Below, in pieces: positions 2,367 to 22,747 of a DNA stretch of 22,747 nt (positions within the stretch are counted from its first letter, which is position 1; every line of letters begins with the position of its first letter). The notes beneath the pieces were generated by a model, which worked only from the letters and a program-made list of their open reading frames with translations, made no database searches and was not told where the DNA came from. Source of the DNA: a virus; IMG/VR virus record IMGVR_UViG_3300030333_004864, positions 1-22,747 of that record, one strand, 5' to 3'. Both the position numbers and the translations under genes were made by a program.

Positions 2367-3851
2367 ATGGCAAAGCAAACCCTAGCAATTGGATCGTCGG
2401 CAAACGATGGGACTGGAGACAGTCTGAGAGATGGTGCTATTAAATTGAATAGCGTCATTGATGAATTGTATACTAATCTCGGTAACGATACCAATTTACA
2501 AATCAACGTTGGCACTCCAGCTCAGGATCAACTACTTAAGTGGAATGGTGCTCAGTTTGCTGAGGGGTCATTTAATAAGTTTACAGAAGATGTAGACGTT
2601 GGTGGTCATAAAATTATATCAGCAAACAATGGTGATATAGTAGTCCAACCAAATGGCAGTGGAGACATTCATCTCTGGGCTGGTGGCACAGGATCTGCTT
2701 TAACTTACATTGATGGTGCTGATGGTAAACTAAAATATAGTAATCACTTCCCTACAACTGGTGATCTCCCTGATGCTGTTACTCATCATGGTATGTTTGC
2801 ATATGTATCTGGTGATGGAGCAGCGAGATATGCTACTAGTAGTGGTTGGAAGAAGATTATAGGTGAGGATCACAGTCTTGGTGATCTTGGCGACGTAGAT
2901 ATGACAGTAGGTGGAGGTCCTAGCGATGGTCAAGTTATTAAGTGGAATGCTGGCAACAGTGCATGGGAGCCTGCAAACGACGATTCATCAGGTGGCGGTG
3001 GTGGTGGAACCACTCAAAATCTATTTGAAGGAATCACTGCTGACACTGGCAGTACTACTGCTAGTGCTCCTACTGATGTCCTTACAGTTGCGGGAGGCAC
3101 TAATATCTCGACTGCAATCACAGGAGACACCCTCACAATAAACATGACAGGGGCATTAGGTGATGCAAACCAAAATGCCTATGGTGTAATTGGAAGTGAT
3201 TCGGGAAATAAGACAGCAAGTAGCACTACTGCTACTATTAATTTACTTGGTGGCACTGGTATAAGCACTGCTATATCAGGTGATAACCTTACAATCACCA
3301 ATGATGCTCCAAACGTATCACAGAATATATTCCAGACAATTGCTGGTGATAGTGGTACAACTGCTGCTGGAAGTGCAACTACTACATTAACCGTAGCGGG
3401 TGGTAATGGAGTTGCAACTGTTGCAACAGCAGACACGTTGACTATAAACGCAGATCTTTATACCTCTTCTACTCCATCCAATAATGATAATATCGTATAC
3501 AATGGTACTTCATGGGATCCTGTAGAGAGTCCTACAGTTGGTTTTACAGTTACTGCACCTACCATGTCTGACTATCAATTCTCAGGTGGTGGTATGGATT
3601 CATCCGCAAATAATCCAACAATCTATGTTTATAGAGGATTTACATACAGATTTGACAACTCAGGTCCAGGTGTAGCACACCCATTTGAATTAAGACAGTC
3701 AGCAGGTGGTGCTGCTCTATCTGTTGGTGTTACTGGATCTACTACAGGAGTCCAATATTATACTGTGCCTCAAAATGTTTCTGCTGGCACAACCTATGTT
3801 TATCAATGCACACTCCATCCTGCAATGGTTGGTAATATAGTAATCGTCTAA
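2367..3851 (+). CDS. Fibre-like structural protein with C-terminal cupredoxin-like domain
   Basis: 494 residues. The N-terminus carries 'ANDGTGDSLRDGAIKLN' (12-28), an adaptor sequence frequent at the start of phage tail and fibre proteins. Three 'KWNG...W'-type motifs lie near residues 59, 193 and 383. A poly-Gly linker (209-214) leads into three ~50-residue beta repeats (3012-3458), each starting with a (T/N/S)QN triplet and ending 'LTI'. The last ~100 residues resemble a cupredoxin: H438 in 'AHPFEL', then C481, H484 and M487 in 'YQCTLHPAM'. This is the His-Cys-His-Met set of type 1 copper sites, although Cys to Met is shorter than in plastocyanin. The ATG at 2367 is the first after the late motif; no strong Shine-Dalgarno is visible. 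Its role is probably a baseplate-attached fibre or decoration. Copper binding is inferred only. Confidence 0.8.
   Translation: MAKQTLAIGSSANDGTGDSLRDGAIKLNSVIDELYTNLGNDTNLQINVGTPAQDQLLKWNGAQFAEGSFNKFTEDVDVGGHKIISANNGDIVVQPNGSGDIHLWAGGTGSALTYIDGADGKLKYSNHFPTTGDLPDAVTHHGMFAYVSGDGAARYATSSGWKKIIGEDHSLGDLGDVDMTVGGGPSDGQVIKWNAGNSAWEPANDDSSGGGGGGTTQNLFEGITADTGSTTASAPTDVLTVAGGTNISTAITGDTLTINMTGALGDANQNAYGVIGSDSGNKTASSTTATINLLGGTGISTAISGDNLTITNDAPNVSQNIFQTIAGDSGTTAAGSATTTLTVAGGNGVATVATADTLTINADLYTSSTPSNNDNIVYNGTSWDPVESPTVGFTVTAPTMSDYQFSGGGMDSSANNPTIYVYRGFTYRFDNSGPGVAHPFELRQSAGGAALSVGVTGSTTGVQYYTVPQNVSAGTTYVYQCTLHPAMVGNIVIV
3012..3458 (+). repeat. Three tandem ~50-residue beta repeats in gene 3
   Basis: Units at 3012-3167, 3168-3317 and 3318-3458. 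Shared pattern: (T/N/S)QN, an aromatic residue, D(T/S)G, a Thr/Ala-rich stretch, (A/L)GG(T/N)(N/G), then (G/A)D(T/N)LTI. Repeats of this type are typical of elongated phage fibre shafts. The copies differ at many codons, so they are old. Confidence 0.7.
3543..3848 (+). other. Cupredoxin-like domain with H438-C481-H484-M487
   Basis: C-terminal ~102 residues of gene 3. The order is a Tyr/Phe-rich strand, 'AHPFEL' with the first His, a Gly/Thr-rich segment, a 'YYTVP' strand, then 'YQCTLHPAMVG'. Relative to plastocyanin the Cys-x2-His spacing is kept, while His to Met is x2 instead of x4. Confidence 0.6.
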
Positions 3852-5794: not shown

Positions 5795-7330
5795 ATGGCA
5801 TTACTTACCGACCAATTTAGAATATTTACTGCCGAAAGGTTCAGGAAGGCACTTGAAGGGCCAAATCCTACTCAGTCTGACCTGGAAGCGGGTACTAGTC
5901 GGGATCGCCTTTATGTGTTTATCGGTAGACCACAACCATGGGATAACGAAAACGCACCTCCAGACCCAGTAGATTCATTCCAAGAATTTTCCGATGACTA
6001 TTCGGATATGATCTCCCTGAAGAGGGTGTTAGCAAATGACACCATTCAGGTTATCCGTCGTACTGACTGGATTCCCCCAGAGCAAACCACTGGTGGTCTG
6101 GGTTATGTTTATGATATGTATCGTCATGATTACTCCTCGACTAAAACGGCATCGTCGGGTGCTACCAAACTTTACGACGCAGATTTCTACGTTGTTAACT
6201 CGTCTTATCAAGTTTACAAGTGCATATACAACGGCACCAGTCCTAGTGATCCTAATGGTAAACCTAGTACTGTTGAGCCTACTGGCACCTCCACTTCAAT
6301 TATCACAACTGCTGATGGTTACCGTTGGAAGTATATGTTTACGATCCCTGTTGGTCAAGTCTTAAAATTCTTCTCCAACGAATACATGCCAGTGTTATTT
6401 GACACTGCTGTTGTGGCGGATGCTATCGGTGGAGAGATTGATACTATTGTTATTGGATCATCTGGTGCGGGTTATAACAACGGTACCTATGAAAACGTCC
6501 CTATTAAAGGAGACGGAGTTGGTGGTAGGGTTTCACTTGTTGTAGATGGTGGTCGTATTGCATCTGCTACTGTTACATCTGGTGGATCTGGATACACCTT
6601 TGGTAAAGTAATCATCGATGAAGTCAATGGTATTGGTGCTGGAACAGGTACTGGTGGTAGCGTTGAGGTTGTCATACCTCCAGTAGGAGGACATGGTAAA
6701 TCCCCTGCAACTGAATTGGGTGGTTTCCGTGTAATGATTAACACTAAGTTCACCTACGATGAAGGATCTGGTGACTTCCCAACTGATAACGACTATCGTC
6801 GTATTGGTTTGGTAATTAATCCTAACAAGTTTGGTACTCAGGAATTAACGTCTGACCTGACATTAAGTGCCACAAAGGCTGCAATATTTGCACCTACGTT
6901 TACTGGAAACTTCCAGACTGACGAGATTATAACCCAGTCTCGTACTGTTGGTGGTCAACAGGTAACGGCAAGAGGACGTGTTATATCATGGAATGCAACT
7001 ACAAAAGTGCTTAAGTATTATCAGAATAGAATTGATGGTATCTTCCCTGAATTCACTGGTAACTTAATCGAGTTTGAAGGTGGTAACCCAATTGTGGGTG
7101 CTATCTCAGGTGCATCTGCTGACCCAGATATTAACTTCCCCATTGTTTCTGGATCCTCCACGAGGGTTATTAACAATGCTGAGTATGACCTAGGTATGGC
7201 ATTTACTAATGGTTATGCAAAAGCAGAAGTTGATCCTAACTCAGGCGATGTCATCTACATAGATAACAGAGGAGCAATTACTCGTGCTGGAGACCAAATT
7301 GAAGACATCAAAATCGTAATCGAGTTCTAA
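5795..7330 (+). CDS. 8: Baseplate wedge subunit gp8 (T4-like), with beta-repeat insertion
   Basis: 511 residues, against 334 in T4 gp8. Gp8 is a dimeric component of each baseplate wedge, built with gp10, gp7, gp6, gp53 and gp25. Blocks matching T4 gp8 from memory, in order: 'FIGRPQPWDNEN' with 'PPDPVDS' (42-61; T4 has GRSEPW and PTDS), 'VIRRTDW' (86-92; T4 VIPRRDW), 'YKC' (141-143; T4 YRC), 'DGYRWKYMFTIP' (174-185; T4 DGYVWEYLFEIP), 'SNEYMPV' (194-200; T4 TNEYIVV), 'RRIGLVINP', and the C-terminus 'IYIDNRGAI...DQIEDIKI' (T4 IYMENRPPI...DQTEEINI). Residues ~211-300 interrupt this match and contain two GxGY repeats plus a Gly-rich loop, which accounts for about half of the extra length. It starts 34 bases after gene 4 and ends 4 bases before the giant gene. 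Identification is firm. Confidence 0.92.
   Translation: MALLTDQFRIFTAERFRKALEGPNPTQSDLEAGTSRDRLYVFIGRPQPWDNENAPPDPVDSFQEFSDDYSDMISLKRVLANDTIQVIRRTDWIPPEQTTGGLGYVYDMYRHDYSSTKTASSGATKLYDADFYVVNSSYQVYKCIYNGTSPSDPNGKPSTVEPTGTSTSIITTADGYRWKYMFTIPVGQVLKFFSNEYMPVLFDTAVVADAIGGEIDTIVIGSSGAGYNNGTYENVPIKGDGVGGRVSLVVDGGRIASATVTSGGSGYTFGKVIIDEVNGIGAGTGTGGSVEVVIPPVGGHGKSPATELGGFRVMINTKFTYDEGSGDFPTDNDYRRIGLVINPNKFGTQELTSDLTLSATKAAIFAPTFTGNFQTDEIITQSRTVGGQQVTARGRVISWNATTKVLKYYQNRIDGIFPEFTGNLIEFEGGNPIVGAISGASADPDINFPIVSGSSTRVINNAEYDLGMAFTNGYAKAEVDPNSGDVIYIDNRGAITRAGDQIEDIKIVIEF
6425..6694 (+). repeat. 8: GxGY repeat insertion inside gp8
   Basis: Residues ~211-300: 'IDTIVIGSSGAGY' and 'IASATVTSGGSGYTFGKVII', followed by a Gly/Thr-rich loop. 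T4 gp8 has nothing similar at this place as I remember it. The repeats resemble those of genes 1 and 4. Confidence 0.65.
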
Positions 7331-15248: not shown

Positions 15249-15404
15249 ATGGCAAATAGAATACAATTAAGACGTGACGGTGCACAGCAGTGGGCGAACG
15301 TCAACCCAATCTTAGCTCAGGGTGAGTTAGGTATCGAAATAGATACTTCTCGACTGAAGATAGGAGATGGTGTTACCTCATGGAACTCTCTAAAGTATGA
15401 GAGA
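15249..15404 (+). other. Mtd_N-like fibre head domain
   Basis: Residues 1-52, with 'IQLRRDG', 'ILAQGELGIEIDT', 'LKIGDGVTSWNSL'. This pattern is common at the N-terminus of phage fibres and resembles the N-terminal domain of the major tropism determinant. Confidence 0.75.
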
Positions 15405-18400
15405 CCATTAGAAACGGAATCAAACACTGCAAATACTCTAGTAAAGAGAGATGCTGACGGTAACTTTGAAGCAGGTGCTATCACCGCTTCTATTATCGGT
15501 AACGCAGCAACCGCAACACGACTAGCAAATGCCCGATCTATCGCACTTGGTGGTGATATGTCGGGTAGTGGTACGTTCGATGGATCCTCGAACTTAACCA
15601 TCACTGCTGAATTGAACTATGTTGTTGCTCTACCTCATTATGATCCTAATGATCTAGATGCTCAAGGTACATACAGTCAGGTAACAGTTGACTCCAGAGG
15701 TAGAATTATTGATGCCTCTAACCCAACAACTCTTGCTGCGTATGGAATTGCTGACGCACAACCATTAGATACAGATCTAACTTCTCTTGCAAGTATGACC
15801 ACCTTTGGTCTCTTATCAAGACAAGCAGAAGGTACTATTGTTAGTAGATCTATTACTGGTGGTGCGAACCGTATTATTGTACAGAATGGTAATGGTCAGT
15901 CATCTAACCCATACATTGACCTTGCTGATACTACAGTTGTTGTCGGTACCTATAACCCAATAGGTAACTTAGACACACCTTTAATATCTGCAACTACAGG
16001 TGATGAGACTGTTAACACAACTAACTTCACAGTAGATAGATATGGTCGTCTGACTTATGCTCAGACCTCTGCTATTGCTACTGCTAAAGAAGGTACATTA
16101 ACTGCTGCATATGATAACGCAGCAACCTATTCAAGATACGATACTGTAAAGAATAGTACTGATAAACTTTATCAGGCAATTGCTGATATCGCTGCTGGAG
16201 GTGGTGAACCATCACATAGTGATACATCAGATACAGGGTCTTGGAGATACTTAGGATCAGGACTAGCACCTCAGAAGGGACTAGCATCCTTTAACCAAGA
16301 AGATTTTGATGTTACCGCATGGGATAATGGTAACAGTATAGAAGGTGGTTTTGTAACCATCGCACAAGCAGGTGTAGATAACACACAATTACAAAATAAT
16401 AGAGTCTCTTTTGCTGATGGTAATACACATGAGCATTTTGAGCTAGACCAAGAATTAACTCCTATTACTGGTTATAGAGGATTTAACTATCTTAATTATA
16501 CTAAGGTAAATGATACTGGAGGTAACCTTCTTGTAGGTGCTAATAATACTGGAGATGGATCTGGTGGTACTCAGTTAGCGGTACAGGAAGTTGCTGTTAC
16601 TGTAGGCACAGACACAGTAGGTGGACAAGCAACAGGTGTATTCTACTTAGATGGAGTAGAGACTCCTTCAAACTTCTCTCTTAAGAGAGGTGTTAAGTAT
16701 ATCTTTAATCAGGATGATTCTACCAATGAAACATTTGGTGGTGCAAATCATCCTCTAATGGTTTCCGATGGTAGTGATGGTGAGCATAATGGTAATGACC
16801 ATTATATGAAGGGCATCACCTATAAGTTGGATGGTGTTGTCGTCAACATGATGGGATACACCACTGGATTCAATGCAGCGACTACTCGTAGTATGGAATG
16901 GGAGGTGCAGGTTGAAGCACCTAATACATTATACTATTGGTGTCATCATCACACAGGTCAAGGTGATAGTTTTGCTATTACTGATGGTGGTGCAGGTGAA
17001 CTTGATATTAATGTAAAGACATTATTCAGTGATCCAGATCTTATACTTGATGGTGGATGGACACAGACTGTTGATAAGACTGGTGATGGAGATCTATGGA
17101 TTAAGAGTACTCAGAATTCAGATGATGATAGAATACTTGATATTCAGATTACTAACGCTGGAGCAGGTTCATCTAGATTAAACATACGTGCTGAGGATGG
17201 TATAACACTTCATGCTACTGATGCGTCAGGTGCATATAATCATGGTCGTGTTTGTTTCGAGAATTTCCATACTAAACAAAACGTTTTAGCATGTGATCCT
17301 GTAGGTAACATGATCCTTGATCCTAATGATACCAATGATTCCTCATCTGGTGTTGTTGAGATCTGGGGTGACCTCTTAGTACAAGGTACAACTACCACAG
17401 TTAACAGTACTACATTAACTGTAGACGATCCTATTATTACATTAGGTGGAGATACAGCACCTACAGTTGCAGATAACCTTGATCGTGGTATAGAATTTAG
17501 ATATTACCAAAGTAGTTCTGCAAGAGTAGGATTCTTTGGTTGGGATTCAAGTTATGCAAACTCTAATATATGGTCAGGCACTGGCGGCTTTAGGTTCCTC
17601 GTCGATGCCACCAACTCATCTGAAATTTTCTCTGGCACTGATGCTCCTGTCATTGCTGGAAACCTCGCTCTCACAACAAACACAGGATCTACCTCGACCA
17701 CTACGGGGACTCTGGTCGTAACGGGTGGTGTTGGTATAAGTGAGAATGTCCATGTCGGTGGTACCACTACTATTGCTGGACAAACAGAGGTAAATAATAA
17801 TGTAATCTTTAAAGCAGATAACAAATCATTTAACATCCAGAATAATGCTGGTGTAGATAAGTTTACTGTAGATTACGACAATGGTAATACAGTCATTGAG
17901 GGTACAGTTGATATTCAGTTAGAGACTGAGATCACAGACAACCTCATTATTAAAGCAGACAATAAGAAATTTGATATCCAGACTGCTGCTGGTGTCAGTG
18001 TATTCGATGTAGATACTGACAATGGTAACGTCCATACAGATGGTACTCTGGATGTAGATAGTGGAGTAACGTTTAATAGCACTCTTGATGTTGATGATAA
18101 CGTAACCTTTAATGCTGAGTTAGATGTAGATGGTGACGTAGTATTCCATAATGACTTCCTAATGGATGTCACTGGTAAGAATTTTACAATAACAAATGGA
18201 TCTGCTACCAAGTTCACAATTTCCACTACTAACGGAAATACCGATATTGAGGGTAGTCTTAATATTGGTGGCTTCAATACTTTTGAGCGTACTAACAATA
18301 TTGCAGTTGATGCGTCTTCATCTGAATCAGACATTACCCTTTCCACTGCTGGTAATGCTACTTTCGCTGGTGGCGTTAATATCGATAAAGATGTCCGTAT

Positions 18401-21400
18401 CGGGACTGATCTATATGTTGCCGATAGGATCGTAGTTAAGGATGACGGCACTGGAAGAGGCCGTCCATCATTAATGAATAACCTTGATGTTTTATATCAT
18501 GGTTACTTTGGTGCTACTACACAACATAACCCAACATTCGCTAATGACCCTGCGTCTAACTTAAGGGTTGCTGGTGGTGCAGGTATTGTACAAGATCTAT
18601 ATGTTGGTGACGACTTCTATGTTGGTAAGGTCGCTACTAATGATACGGTTGAATTTGAAATATTAGGAGAGAGTGGTAATACAACTATTGGTCGTGTTGG
18701 TCAGGGTAGCGGTACTGCTGGTACATTAACTGTCCATGGTGACGTAGAATTAAATCGTGAAGTTAATATAACTGGTGCACTAACAACCATTGGTGATGCT
18801 AACACTGACGTACTTACAGTCAATGCAGTATCTCAGTTTACTGATGATGTCACAGTTGATGGATCGCTGACAGTTAACACTAACGCATTAGTTGAAGGTA
18901 ACCTCACAGTTAATGGTACTACAACTACTGTGAATAGTACCGTAGTTACAGTAGATGACCCTGTATTCACTTTAGGTGGTGATACAGCACCAGGTAGTAA
19001 TGACGCTAAGGATCGTGGTATTGAATTCAGATACTATGACACTTCAGCAAGACTTGGATTCTTCGGATGGGATAACTCTGCTAGTAGATTTGCTTTCTAT
19101 CATAATGCAACTAATAGCTCTGAAGCATTCTCAGGTAATAGATCAGGTATTGATGCTGGATCTGTAAAACTATTTGATACGACTAATTCATCATCTGCAT
19201 CTTCAGGTACATTAATCGTAGGTGGTGGTGCTGGTATTGGTCTTAACTTATATGTTGGAGCAATTCTTGATGTAACATCACATGCTTCTGTCGGTGGTAA
19301 TGCTGATATAACAGGAACACTTGATGTCACAGATGACTTTGCTGTTAACACACAGAAATTTACAGTTGCTGCTTCTACTGGTAACACAGTTGTCCAAGGT
19401 ACATTACAGGTAGATGGTAATGCAACTATTGGTAATGCCTCTGGTGACTCACATGTAATTACAGGTGTAGTCCAGTTTAACCAAGCAATTACATCAACAG
19501 ATATCACTGCTGATAACGTCCAGATCGGTGTAGATGGCACTAATGAAATTAGCACTACTTCTGGCAACTTAATATTAGACTCTGATGGTGGCACAGTTAA
19601 TGTCACAGATGATCTAGATGTAGATAATAACTTAAATGTAGATGGAAATACTAAGGTCGATGGTACCCTTACAGTTGACGGGAATACTACTATCGGCAAT
19701 GCTTCTGGTGACGCTCATAGCTTTACTGGTACAGTTCAGTTCAACCAAGCAATCACCTCCACAGATATCACAGCTGATTCTGTTACCATTGGCGTGGATT
19801 CTGATGGTGAAATTAGCACTACTACTGGAGTCAATCTCATACTCGACTCCGCAACTGGAGAAACTCAAGTCGATGATAACCTCACAGTCACTGGCACCTT
19901 AGATGTAGATGGTAATACACAGATTGGTAACAACTCTGGTGATGCTCATGCCTTCACAGGTACAGTAACATTCAATCAGGCAATTACATCTACTGATATT
20001 ACTGCTGATAACGTGCAGTTGGGTGTATCTGGTGCTTCTGAAGTTGATACTGCATCAGGTAACTTAACTCTTGACTCTGCTACTGGTGAGACAGTTATTG
20101 ATGATAACGTAACTGTTAATGGCACAGCAGATATTGATGGTCTTACTACTATTACAGACGGTCTAACAGTCAAGGCTGATAACAAACTTGTCCAGATTCA
20201 GACTGCTGCTGGACTAACCAAGGTCAGCATTGATACTGACAATGGTAATACAGATATTCAAGGCACTCTCAACGTAGAAGGTGCTACAACTATTGATGAT
20301 ACATTCAATGTCACAGGTGCAACTGATTTAGATAGCACTCTGAATGTAGATGGTGTTGCAACATTCCAAAACAATGTTGTATTGAATGCTGACGATAAAG
20401 AATTCGCTATACAGTTAGATGATGGCACAGACAAGTTTACAGTCCAATCGGCATCTGGTAACACAGATATTCAAGGAACGCTCGACGTTAATGGTGCTAC
20501 AAATATCACTAATACTCTTGGTGTTACTGGTATTACCTCCATCACTAATGCTACTAATCCTTCTAACCTTATAGGTGCTGCTGCACTACAGGTTACAGGT
20601 GGTGCGGTAATTAATAAGGATGTCTTCTTAGGTGAAGACTTCTACATGGGTCCAAACAATGCTCCATCATTCTCCATTGTTGGTACAACAGGTAATACTC
20701 TTATCGGAGGCACACTAGGTGTCACTGGTACAACTACTCTAGGTATTGCTGATGTAGGTACACTTAACCTATCATCCAACGCTAACATCTCTGGATCGAT
20801 TATCGTTAACACCAGCAAGTTTATTGTTGCAGGTGCTACTGGTAATACTACTATAGACGGCACACTTGATGTTGCTGGACGCACAATCATCGATGATACC
20901 TTACAGGTAACACAGAATGTAGACTTTGATTCTGACCTTAATGTAGATGGTAATGCCCAGATAGATGGCACACTTACTGTTGACACAACCTCTTTATTCA
21001 AAGATAGTGTTACATTAAAAGGTGGTAGTAAGACATTAAAACTTCAGAATGGATCTGGCACAGATAAGATTACCTTACACTCAACATCTGGTAATGCTGA
21101 GATAACTGGTACTTCAACTCTTGGCACTCTTGCTGTAACAAACAACACCACCATAGGTGGCACACTTGGTGTAACAGGACAGATCACTGGTAATGTAACT
21201 GGTGACCTAACAGGTAATGCAGACACAGCATCGTTGGTTGACGTAACTGAGACTGCTACATCAAACTTGACATACTATCCTACTTTCGTTTCTGCTAACA
21301 CAGGTAACACTGAAATCAGGACAGACTCAAGCAACTTAACTTATAATCCTTCAACTAATACTCTTACAGTTAATAACTTCAAGTCAACTACTGACTTCGA

Positions 21401-22747
21401 GGTACAAGGTAACTTAAACGTTACTGGAGCATTAACATTCTTCCAGTCACAGGTTGGTAGTATTGCTAACCATGATACTGATGATTTGGTAGAAGGGTCA
21501 TCTAACAAGTATTTCACTAACGAAAGGGTAGATGATAGAGTTAACAACCTAATCAATGCTGGAACAGGTATATCTGCAACATATGATGATGCAGGTAATA
21601 TGCTCACCTTAAGTGCAGTCCAGTCAGATCTTAATACTGACAACTTCACTGAAGGATCTACCAACCTCTTCACCACTGCAGCTAGAACGAGGACTCACTT
21701 CACCTACGGAACAGGTGTCGAGTTGTCGGGTGGTGGAGAACTTTCTGTTACTCAGTCAGACATTAATACTGATAACGTAACCGAAGGTTCTACTAATCTC
21801 TTTACTACTGCTGCAAGGACTCGTGGACACATCAGTGTAAGTGGAGACTTAGCATACAATGCTTCTACTGGTGTTATCTCATACACAATCCCAACAACTA
21901 TCGCATCTCTATCCAACCATGATACAGATGATGTAGCAGAGGGATCAACTAACAAGTATTATACAGATGAGAGAGTAGATGACAGATTGAATGCTGTTAT
22001 CATCGCTGGTACTGGAGTCGAGAAGGTATACGACGATGCTGCAAACACTTATACACTATCTGTTACTCAAGCCGATATTAATTCTGATACTATTACTGAA
22101 GGCAGCACTAACCTCTTTACCACTGCTGCTCGCACTCGTGGTCATATCAGTGTTGGTGGATCTCTAGCATACAACAGTGGCACTGGTGTTATTTCTTACA
22201 CTACACCTGATACTGATGGTGTTTCTGAAGGATCTTCTAATCTATACTATACAGATGCTAGAGCAAGAGCTGCAATCTCTGAAAACAGCACACAACTAGC
22301 ATACAACTCCACCACTGGTGTATTGACATATACTCAGGGTGATACTGATACAGTATCTGAAGGATCAAACAATCTTTACTATACAGATGCTAGAGCAGAC
22401 GCACGTATTGCTGCTGCTGATACTGACGATCTATCTGAAGGATCCTCTAACCTATACTTCACTAATGCTAGAGCAGATGCGAGAATCGCTGCTGCTGATA
22501 CTGATGATCTATCTGAAGGATCAACCAATCTATACTTCACTAATGCTCGTGCTGATGCTCGTGTAACAGCAGGTATAACTGGAAAACTTGATGCTTCTGC
22601 TGTTAGTGCTTTCGGTCTAACATTAGTTGATGATGCTGACGCTGCTACTGCAAGGACAACTCTTGGACTTGGCACTGCTGCTGTTGCTGCAACTGGTGAC
22701 TTCGCTACTGCTGCACAAGGTACAACTGCTGACAACGCACTCGCTGC
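15249..22747 (+). CDS. Giant tail-fibre-like protein, 3' end outside window (>2499 aa)
   Basis: The frame is open from the ATG at 15249 to the window end. N-terminus: 'IQLRRDGAQQWANVNP...GELGIEIDTSRLKIGDGV', typical of Mtd_N-like fibre heads (residues 1-52). Next come a fibre repeat with 'LAAYGIADAQPLD' (~155-240), a possible CBM5/12-like module (288-336), an HxH pair (H394/H396), a cupredoxin-like domain (463-577) with H501 and C565-H-H-H568, and a long shaft of 'GTLDVDGNT'-type beta repeats (~700-1990). The shaft includes two ~120-residue duplicated modules and three ~80-residue modules. The visible end has repeats of the 'SEGSSNLYFTNARADARI' type. Related fibres often end in an S74 chaperone or receptor-binding tip, which would lie downstream. 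A shaft of this size suggests a long host-recognition fibre; the receptor is unknown. Confidence 0.88.
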   Translation, partial: MANRIQLRRDGAQQWANVNPILAQGELGIEIDTSRLKIGDGVTSWNSLKYERPLETESNTANTLVKRDADGNFEAGAITASIIGNAATATRLANARSIALGGDMSGSGTFDGSSNLTITAELNYVVALPHYDPNDLDAQGTYSQVTVDSRGRIIDASNPTTLAAYGIADAQPLDTDLTSLASMTTFGLLSRQAEGTIVSRSITGGANRIIVQNGNGQSSNPYIDLADTTVVVGTYNPIGNLDTPLISATTGDETVNTTNFTVDRYGRLTYAQTSAIATAKEGTLTAAYDNAATYSRYDTVKNSTDKLYQAIADIAAGGGEPSHSDTSDTGSWRYLGSGLAPQKGLASFNQEDFDVTAWDNGNSIEGGFVTIAQAGVDNTQLQNNRVSFADGNTHEHFELDQELTPITGYRGFNYLNYTKVNDTGGNLLVGANNTGDGSGGTQLAVQEVAVTVGTDTVGGQATGVFYLDGVETPSNFSLKRGVKYIFNQDDSTNETFGGANHPLMVSDGSDGEHNGNDHYMKGITYKLDGVVVNMMGYTTGFNAATTRSMEWEVQVEAPNTLYYWCHHHTGQGDSFAITDGGAGELDINVKTLFSDPDLILDGGWTQTVDKTGDGDLWIKSTQNSDDDRILDIQITNAGAGSSRLNIRAEDGITLHATDASGAYNHGRVCFENFHTKQNVLACDPVGNMILDPNDTNDSSSGVVEIWGDLLVQGTTTTVNSTTLTVDDPIITLGGDTAPTVADNLDRGIEFRYYQSSSARVGFFGWDSSYANSNIWSGTGGFRFLVDATNSSEIFSGTDAPVIAGNLALTTNTGSTSTTTGTLVVTGGVGISENVHVGGTTTIAGQTEVNNNVIFKADNKSFNIQNNAGVDKFTVDYDNGNTVIEGTVDIQLETEITDNLIIKADNKKFDIQTAAGVSVFDVDTDNGNVHTDGTLDVDSGVTFNSTLDVDDNVTFNAELDVDGDVVFHNDFLMDVTGKNFTITNGSATKFTISTTNGNTDIEGSLNIGGFNTFERTNNIAVDASSSESDITLSTAGNATFAGGVNIDKDVRIGTDLYVADRIVVKDDGTGRGRPSLMNNLDVLYHGYFGATTQHNPTFANDPASNLRVAGGAGIVQDLYVGDDFYVGKVATNDTVEFEILGESGNTTIGRVGQGSGTAGTLTVHGDVELNREVNITGALTTIGDANTDVLTVNAVSQFTDDVTVDGSLTVNTNALVEGNLTVNGTTTTVNSTVVTVDDPVFTLGGDTAPGSNDAKDRGIEFRYYDTSARLGFFGWDNSASRFAFYHNATNSSEAFSGNRSGIDAGSVKLFDTTNSSSASSGTLIVGGGAGIGLNLYVGAILDVTSHASVGGNADITGTLDVTDDFAVNTQKFTVAASTGNTVVQGTLQVDGNATIGNASGDSHVITGVVQFNQAITSTDITADNVQIGVDGTNEISTTSGNLILDSDGGTVNVTDDLDVDNNLNVDGNTKVDGTLTVDGNTTIGNASGDAHSFTGTVQFNQAITSTDITADSVTIGVDSDGEISTTTGVNLILDSATGETQVDDNLTVTGTLDVDGNTQIGNNSGDAHAFTGTVTFNQAITSTDITADNVQLGVSGASEVDTASGNLTLDSATGETVIDDNVTVNGTADIDGLTTITDGLTVKADNKLVQIQTAAGLTKVSIDTDNGNTDIQGTLNVEGATTIDDTFNVTGATDLDSTLNVDGVATFQNNVVLNADDKEFAIQLDDGTDKFTVQSASGNTDIQGTLDVNGATNITNTLGVTGITSITNATNPSNLIGAAALQVTGGAVINKDVFLGEDFYMGPNNAPSFSIVGTTGNTLIGGTLGVTGTTTLGIADVGTLNLSSNANISGSIIVNTSKFIVAGATGNTTIDGTLDVAGRTIIDDTLQVTQNVDFDSDLNVDGNAQIDGTLTVDTTSLFKDSVTLKGGSKTLKLQNGSGTDKITLHSTSGNAEITGTSTLGTLAVTNNTTIGGTLGVTGQITGNVTGDLTGNADTASLVDVTETATSNLTYYPTFVSANTGNTEIRTDSSNLTYNPSTNTLTVNNFKSTTDFEVQGNLNVTGALTFFQSQVGSIANHDTDDLVEGSSNKYFTNERVDDRVNNLINAGTGISATYDDAGNMLTLSAVQSDLNTDNFTEGSTNLFTTAARTRTHFTYGTGVELSGGGELSVTQSDINTDNVTEGSTNLFTTAARTRGHISVSGDLAYNASTGVISYTIPTTIASLSNHDTDDVAEGSTNKYYTDERVDDRLNAVIIAGTGVEKVYDDAANTYTLSVTQADINSDTITEGSTNLFTTAARTRGHISVGGSLAYNSGTGVISYTTPDTDGVSEGSSNLYYTDARARAAISENSTQLAYNSTTGVLTYTQGDTDTVSEGSNNLYYTDARADARIAAADTDDLSEGSSNLYFTNARADARIAAADTDDLSEGSTNLYFTNARADARVTAGITGKLDASAVSAFGLTLVDDADAATARTTLGLGTAAVAATGDFATAAQGTTADNALA
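16110..16256 (+). other. Possible CBM5/12-like carbohydrate-binding module
   Basis: Residues 288-336: 'YDNAATYSRYDTV', 'DKLYQAIADIAAGG', 'P', 'S..GSWRYLG'. The order of Tyr, Val, LY-x-A, Pro and a late Trp resembles chitin/cellulose-binding modules of the CBM5/12 type. It is a short motif match judged by eye. Confidence 0.4.
16635..16979 (+). other. Cupredoxin-like domain in the fibre (C565-HHH)
   Basis: Residues 463-577: 'GVFYLDGV' start, 'NHPLMVSDG' with H501, a long loop rich in His/Asp/Asn, then 'TLYYWCHHHTGQGDSFAI'. H501, C565 and H568 fit three copper-ligand positions. No Met follows; Gln571 is the nearest candidate axial ligand. Confidence 0.55.
17388..17762 (+). repeat. Fibre module A, copy 1
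   Basis: 125 residues from 'TTTTVNSTTLTVDDP' through 'TLGGDTAP', 'DRGIEFRYY', 'ARVGFFGWD', 'NSSEIFSG' to 'GGVGISENVHVGG'. Matches 18918-19262. Confidence 0.8.
18918..19262 (+). repeat. Fibre module A, copy 2
   Basis: 115 residues with the same blocks: 'TTTTVNSTVVTVDDP', 'TLGGDTAP', 'DRGIEFRYY', 'ARLGFFGWD', 'NSSEAFSG', 'GGGAGIGLNLYVGA'. It is ten residues shorter than copy 1, mainly between 'FFGWD' and 'NSSE'. Confidence 0.8.
19401..20123 (+). repeat. Fibre module B, three tandem copies
   Basis: Units at 19401-19664 (88 aa), 19665-19895 (77 aa) and 19896-20123 (76 aa). Each has 'TLxVDGN', '(T/Q)IGN.SGD(S/A)H', an invariant 'FNQAITSTDITAD' and '(N)L.LDS..G'. The residues are conserved but the codons are not. 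Confidence 0.85.
21471..22571 (+). repeat. 'EGSxNLYxTxARxxAR' repeat array near the fibre end
   Basis: Degenerate repeats with 'DTDD(L/V).EGS(S/T)N(K/L)Y(F/Y)T(N/D)' and the variant 'EGSTNLFTTAARTR'. The last three units (22341-22418, 22419-22496, 22497-22571) are almost exactly 78 bases each and the most alike. Earlier units carry 'GVISYT' or 'YDDAGN' spacers. Confidence 0.8.

Follow-up and report, generated by a model that had tools for sequence, protein, structure and literature searches.

A predicted type-1 copper module in the tail-fiber connector gp9 of marine cyanophages

We found that gp9, the tail-fiber connector of a T4-like marine cyanomyovirus, ends in what is, by predicted structure and profile homology, a genuine cupredoxin. 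It comprises the last 107 residues of the protein and carries a complete predicted set of amicyanin-type type-1 copper ligands (His438, Cys481, His484, and Met487). The fold, together with a ligand set that is complete and invariant in gp9, suggests that the tails of these viruses probably contain copper. The data are best explained by a type-1 copper module located at the gp9 fiber socket, and we give this reading a probability of about 0.78. The stretch of DNA analyzed (the window) is a virus record of 22,747 bases covering part of the structural region of such a phage. The relevant features of gp9 are as follows.

2367..3851, plus strand: gp9, baseplate-wedge/tail-fiber connector, 494 aa (PF07880, phrog_677, gp9 annotation in isolates)
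2373..2585, plus strand: N-terminal gp9/gp10-type domain, residues 3-73 (PF07880 match; gp7-binding end in T4, PMC3004832)
3528..3848, plus strand: C-terminal type-1-copper-like cupredoxin domain, residues 388-494, 107 aa (AlphaFold2, Foldseek, profile homology)
3678..3680, plus strand: H438, predicted first His ligand, in an HP motif; aligns with amicyanin His53
3807..3809, plus strand: C481, predicted thiolate ligand, sole cysteine of gp9; aligns with amicyanin Cys92
3816..3818, plus strand: H484, predicted second His ligand; aligns with amicyanin His95
3825..3827, plus strand: M487, predicted axial Met ligand; aligns with amicyanin Met98

The earlier note on this DNA had spoken of a phage structural protein, which can now be named. 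PF07880 (T4_gp9_10_N) matches the ORF at 3.5e-9 (37.4 bits against a cutoff of 25), phrog_677 (“baseplate wedge tail fiber protein connector”) matches it at 1e-141, and its homologs in phage isolates are annotated as gp9. Moreover, a profile built from gp9 N-termini recovered T4 gp9 and gp10 themselves. The gp8 gene lies downstream (5795-7330), and the window, P-TIM40, and S-WAM1 have a common gene order: a giant structural protein, a YHYH-type protein, gp9, one ORF, and gp8. The YHYH domain protein upstream of gp9 spans 751-2343, with its domain at about 1237-1824 (PF14240, 5e-35); YHYH domains have been predicted to be tail-associated Zn-dependent hydrolases (PMC7824862). Methylamine dehydrogenase was absent from the window.

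Single-sequence searches were too weak to assign the C-terminal fold, which was thus decided by profiles and structure only. The window protein alone did not match PF00127 (Copper-bind) in a Pfam search, reached 15.3 bits against the equivalog cutoff of 110.2 for NCBIfam amicyanin (TIGR02657), and gave no significant phmmer match to PDB sequences (best amicyanin E 0.24); 25 of 36 close homologs matched PF00127 weakly (best 0.0021). AlphaFold2, run on residues 388-494 with 36 homologs, predicted an all-beta domain with a mean pLDDT of 93.1 and a pTM of 0.86. When this model was compared with the PDB using Foldseek, every match at E<1e-3 (23 of 23) was a type-1 copper protein, among them rusticyanin, amicyanin, plastocyanin, pseudoazurin, and Cu-nitrite reductase. 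The TM-scores of these 23 best matches were moderate (0.42-0.56, rmsd 4-7 Å), as expected for a distant member of the family. Independently of structure, a sequence-only profile of 20 diverse phage cupredoxin domains (profile A2) gave 95 matches to PDB sequences at E≤1, and the 60 listed comprised only type-1 copper proteins and CuA domains related to them. Cu-nitrite reductase was the best (7.8e-6), followed by amicyanin (2.2e-5) and plastocyanin (3.5e-5), in a range extending to 1e-4. The earlier note had proposed a cupredoxin-like domain at 3543-3848 and suggested a structure prediction and a fold search; both were run and returned a cupredoxin, whose end is as proposed but whose start lies slightly upstream, at 3528. 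By fold alone, the domain also matched BFVD entries labeled as pithovirus or marseillevirus “beta-sandwich proteins” (A0A481Z6J5, A0A481YY19, and others).

The four ligand residues stand exactly where the earlier note had placed them (nucleotides 3678, 3807, 3816, and 3825). In the profile alignment, positions 50, 93, 96, and 99 fall over H53, C92, H95, and M98 of amicyanin, and the four residues of gp9 are therefore predicted to converge as their amicyanin counterparts do. The ligand loop of gp9 (CTLHPAM) has the same length as that of amicyanin (CTPHPFM), both being C-x2-H-x2-M. This agreement removes a doubt raised earlier, that a short Cys-Met distance makes binding uncertain, since the spacing is not anomalous for a cupredoxin of the amicyanin kind. 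The fold matches also included PDB entry 2vmj, a nitrite reductase rebuilt with this amicyanin loop.

Conservation of the site was assessed in gp9 genes retrieved via N-terminal peptides, a query unbiased toward the ligands, which gave 76 homologs with a complete C-terminus. All 76 contained the domain and all four ligands, even though domain identity averaged 56% and fell as low as 35%. Codon use at the ligand sites was mixed, Cys and His each being represented by both of their codons, and the ligand Cys was the sole cysteine of gp9 in 70 of the homologs. Three had the loop C-x4-H-x2-M and one C-x2-H-x3-M; because the ligands are kept in proteins of altered loop length, they survive loop indels. 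Natural gp9 loop-length variants were seen at loci L287, L291, L296, and L300. Across the 20 diverse phage domains, only six columns were invariant (H51, P52, Y92, C94, H97, and M100), those other than the ligands being the Pro right after the first His and the Tyr two positions before the Cys. In our viral scans, the ligands formed part of one of six search patterns in the first and of the pattern used in the second, which makes conservation there partly circular; we therefore repeated the analysis with a ligand-masked profile, in addition to the N-terminal gp9 query. With the ligands masked, 82 of 88 non-redundant domains still had a complete set.

Ligands have been lost in some sister domains. 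Of 18 non-anchor HCHM-type domains long enough to be judged, 15 were complete and three had lost ligands (two copies at locus L184 and one at L199). In addition, Syn9, S-SSM5, P-SSM4, and P-SSM7 each encode a third cupredoxin without the Cys and His, whereas the gp9 copy of the same phage is complete. This ligand-less cupredoxin appears to interrupt the YHYH domain encoded by the gene that follows gp9 (T4-GC 399; loci L257, L266, L268, and L269). At L157, L161, L167, and L199, a single phage ORF encodes several cupredoxin domains in tandem, most of them with complete ligands. Since sister domains lack ligands yet are folded, the cupredoxin fold does not by itself demand them, and something else must require them in gp9; by the same token, some copies can do without a metal.

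The window encodes one further domain of this fold, in a fiber-like ORF.

16587..16988, plus strand: second cupredoxin-like domain, residues 447-580 of fiber-like ORF 15249-22745 (AlphaFold2, Foldseek, alignment A4)

Its model was of similarly high confidence (pLDDT 94.7, pTM 0.88), and its best 50 Foldseek matches were multicopper oxidases, with the laccases CotA and CueO scoring best (E from 2.2e-3 upward). Alignment A4 places its ligand positions at H501, C565, and H568, with a conserved Gln571 at the axial place of Met, and the loop WCHHHTGQG thus resembles stellacyanin-type sites with axial Gln. Relatives of this domain were found in 292 phage records. Some gp9 variants of 641-645 aa contain both a Gln-type and a Met-type domain (loci L023, L031, L032, L034, L035, and L036). 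The fiber-like ORF itself opens with an Mtd_N domain, the N-terminal type of major tropism determinants (PF18454, 2.9e-13; window 15249-15380).

The gp9-type domain was present in 326 phage records: three bear marine-virus names, and the other 323 are called Synechococcus phages, Prochlorococcus phages, or cyanophages. Isolates with the domain have from one to five profile matches per genome at the threshold used, with five in P-HM1, and it recurs in other tail proteins of cyanomyoviruses as well as in one podovirus, P-GSP1, which has a single cupredoxin domain. It was not found in the whole genomes of T4, KVP40, S-PM2 (at E≤0.001), HTVC008M, S-CRM01, P-SSP7, and Ma-LMM01. A scan of a genome collection gave three matches (L117, L118, and L119), each a gp9 with the domain, in assemblies labeled Nonlabens and Euryarchaeota. 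These are probably cyanophage contigs within cellular assemblies, and thus no cellular donor was identified. We also considered whether YHYH and cupredoxin domains form one metal system. YHYH domains are common in the same phages, yet presence was not matched: S-PM2 has YHYH without a cupredoxin, while P-GSP1 and C48C1 have a cupredoxin without YHYH. As this excludes a strict coupling, the idea was set aside.

In T4, the N-terminus of gp9 binds gp7 and the remainder of the protein, present in 18 copies, is exposed; the long tail fibers attach to the C-terminal domain, and gp9 acts as a joint that swivels with them (PMC3004832). By analogy, the cupredoxin would lie at the end of the gp9 trimer that faces the solvent and that attaches the fibers in T4, and the earlier suggestion of a surface-exposed C-terminus would fit that description (PMC3004832). 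We infer that each gp9 subunit would bind one metal ion, most likely copper, a step that we consider quite likely; if gp9 is arranged as six trimers as in T4, a virion could carry up to 18 metal ions. More tentatively, with odds somewhat below even, the docking face of the fiber socket, or a face that contacts the host surface, may be formed by the site with its metal in place together with the rigid loop that bears the ligands. The metal would then fix the geometry of the ligand loop; electron transfer would be possible but is not needed for this proposal, in which docking of fibers on the cupredoxin is extrapolated from T4. One point against the copper module is that virions assemble in a cytoplasm considered nearly devoid of free copper; loading would then have to take place at or after lysis.

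Several other explanations of the domain can be weighed against a copper module. The fold could have been retained merely as a beta-sandwich display module, an adhesin whose ligands are relics, as the earlier note had allowed. Such a role would suit a fold that is used in many tail proteins beside Ig, lectin, and YHYH domains and that persists without ligands in Syn9, S-SSM5, P-SSM4, P-SSM7, L184, and L199. However, those copies show what happens when ligands decay and the fold stays, whereas the gp9 ligands are unchanged through loop indels and deep sequence divergence; the contrast weakens this reading, which we regard as highly improbable. Alternatively, the metal bound in vivo could be zinc or some other ion that acts only as a structural staple; type-1 copper sites can take up Zn in vitro. 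A precedent is the iron at the tip of T4 gp37, which is held by HxH motifs (quoted in PMC11705849). Against a staple, cupredoxins use a His2-Cys-Met set spaced in this way for copper. Moreover, apo-cupredoxins fold without metal, and we judge this explanation unlikely. A further proposal is that virions capture copper from seawater, either as a lure or nutrient mimic for attachment (a copper “Ferrojan Horse”) or for protection against reactive oxygen. The exposed position of the domain and the presence of as many as five domain matches in a genome, which would mean multiple sites per virion, are consistent with such capture, but no receptor is known and copper is toxic to picocyanobacteria; we consider this proposal very unlikely.

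A switch governed by the metal or redox state of the socket would be a more elaborate use of copper. Here, reduction or delivery of copper close to the host surface would alter the socket domain and thereby control fiber docking, deployment, or contraction, aiding fiber release or triggering tail contraction; in this way the phage would sense that a cell is alive and illuminated. Such a switch would call for a full set of redox-type ligands at a joint that swivels with the fibers in T4, as is seen here. Adsorption is light-dependent in some cyanophages, including P-HM2, and is not light-dependent in P-SSP7 (PMC7112961). P-HM1, a relative of P-HM2, has the five domain matches noted above, and P-SSP7 has none. 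However, this correlation with light rests on two phages. S-PM2, which lacks the domain at the threshold given above, is nevertheless said to adsorb in a light-dependent manner (reportedly in Jia et al. 2010), and light-dependent adsorption was therefore down-weighted as a general function. We also know of no electron donor or acceptor for the gp9 site, and overall we consider a switch distinctly unlikely. If true, it would constitute a redox- or metal-gated infection trigger made from a blue copper protein.

The type-1 copper module thus remains the preferred reading. If abundant ocean phages have a complete, invariant type-1 site in their tail-fiber connector, their virions would be copper-binding particles, and the debate on iron in the tails of phages would extend to a second metal. 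The predicted site provides a concrete, testable point for fiber docking in cyanophages and possibly for host sensing, and the ligand-bearing, Gln-axial, and ligand-less copies offer a ready natural comparison series. Among the open-access papers covered by the search, we found none that connects cupredoxins with the baseplates of phages or the tails of cyanophages.

The known role of cupredoxins is to carry electrons, either as soluble proteins or as parts of enzymes. Amicyanin (Paracoccus; TIGR02657, PDB 1AAC), one of the best profile and fold matches of the gp9 domain, has the same fold, ligand order, and C-x2-H-x2-M loop. In contrast to amicyanin, the gp9 domain has Pro rather than Asn after the first His, scores far under the equivalog cutoff, and is part of a virion protein. 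Plastocyanin (PF00127) has the fold and ligand set in common with the gp9 domain, at significant profile similarity, and its ligand loop is longer (C-x2-H-x4-M). The best profile matches, 6hbe and 9cck, belong to the type-1 domains of Cu-nitrite reductases and laccases (CotA, CueO); in laccases, too, the first His occurs in an HP motif. Unlike these enzymes, the gp9 module is a single domain without a second copper-binding His set. Compared with T4 gp9 (PDB 1S2E), the cyanophage protein has a homologous N-terminal part and the same gene role and name, but in the window gp9 a cupredoxin stands at the position of the T4-type C-terminal fiber-binding domain. The iron-binding HxH fiber tips of T4 gp37 and Alteromonas phage R22Y (PMC11705849) resemble gp9 in placing a metal site in the tail-fiber system; they hold octahedral, His-only iron at the tips of fibers, whereas gp9 is predicted to have a type-1 copper-type site at the fiber socket.
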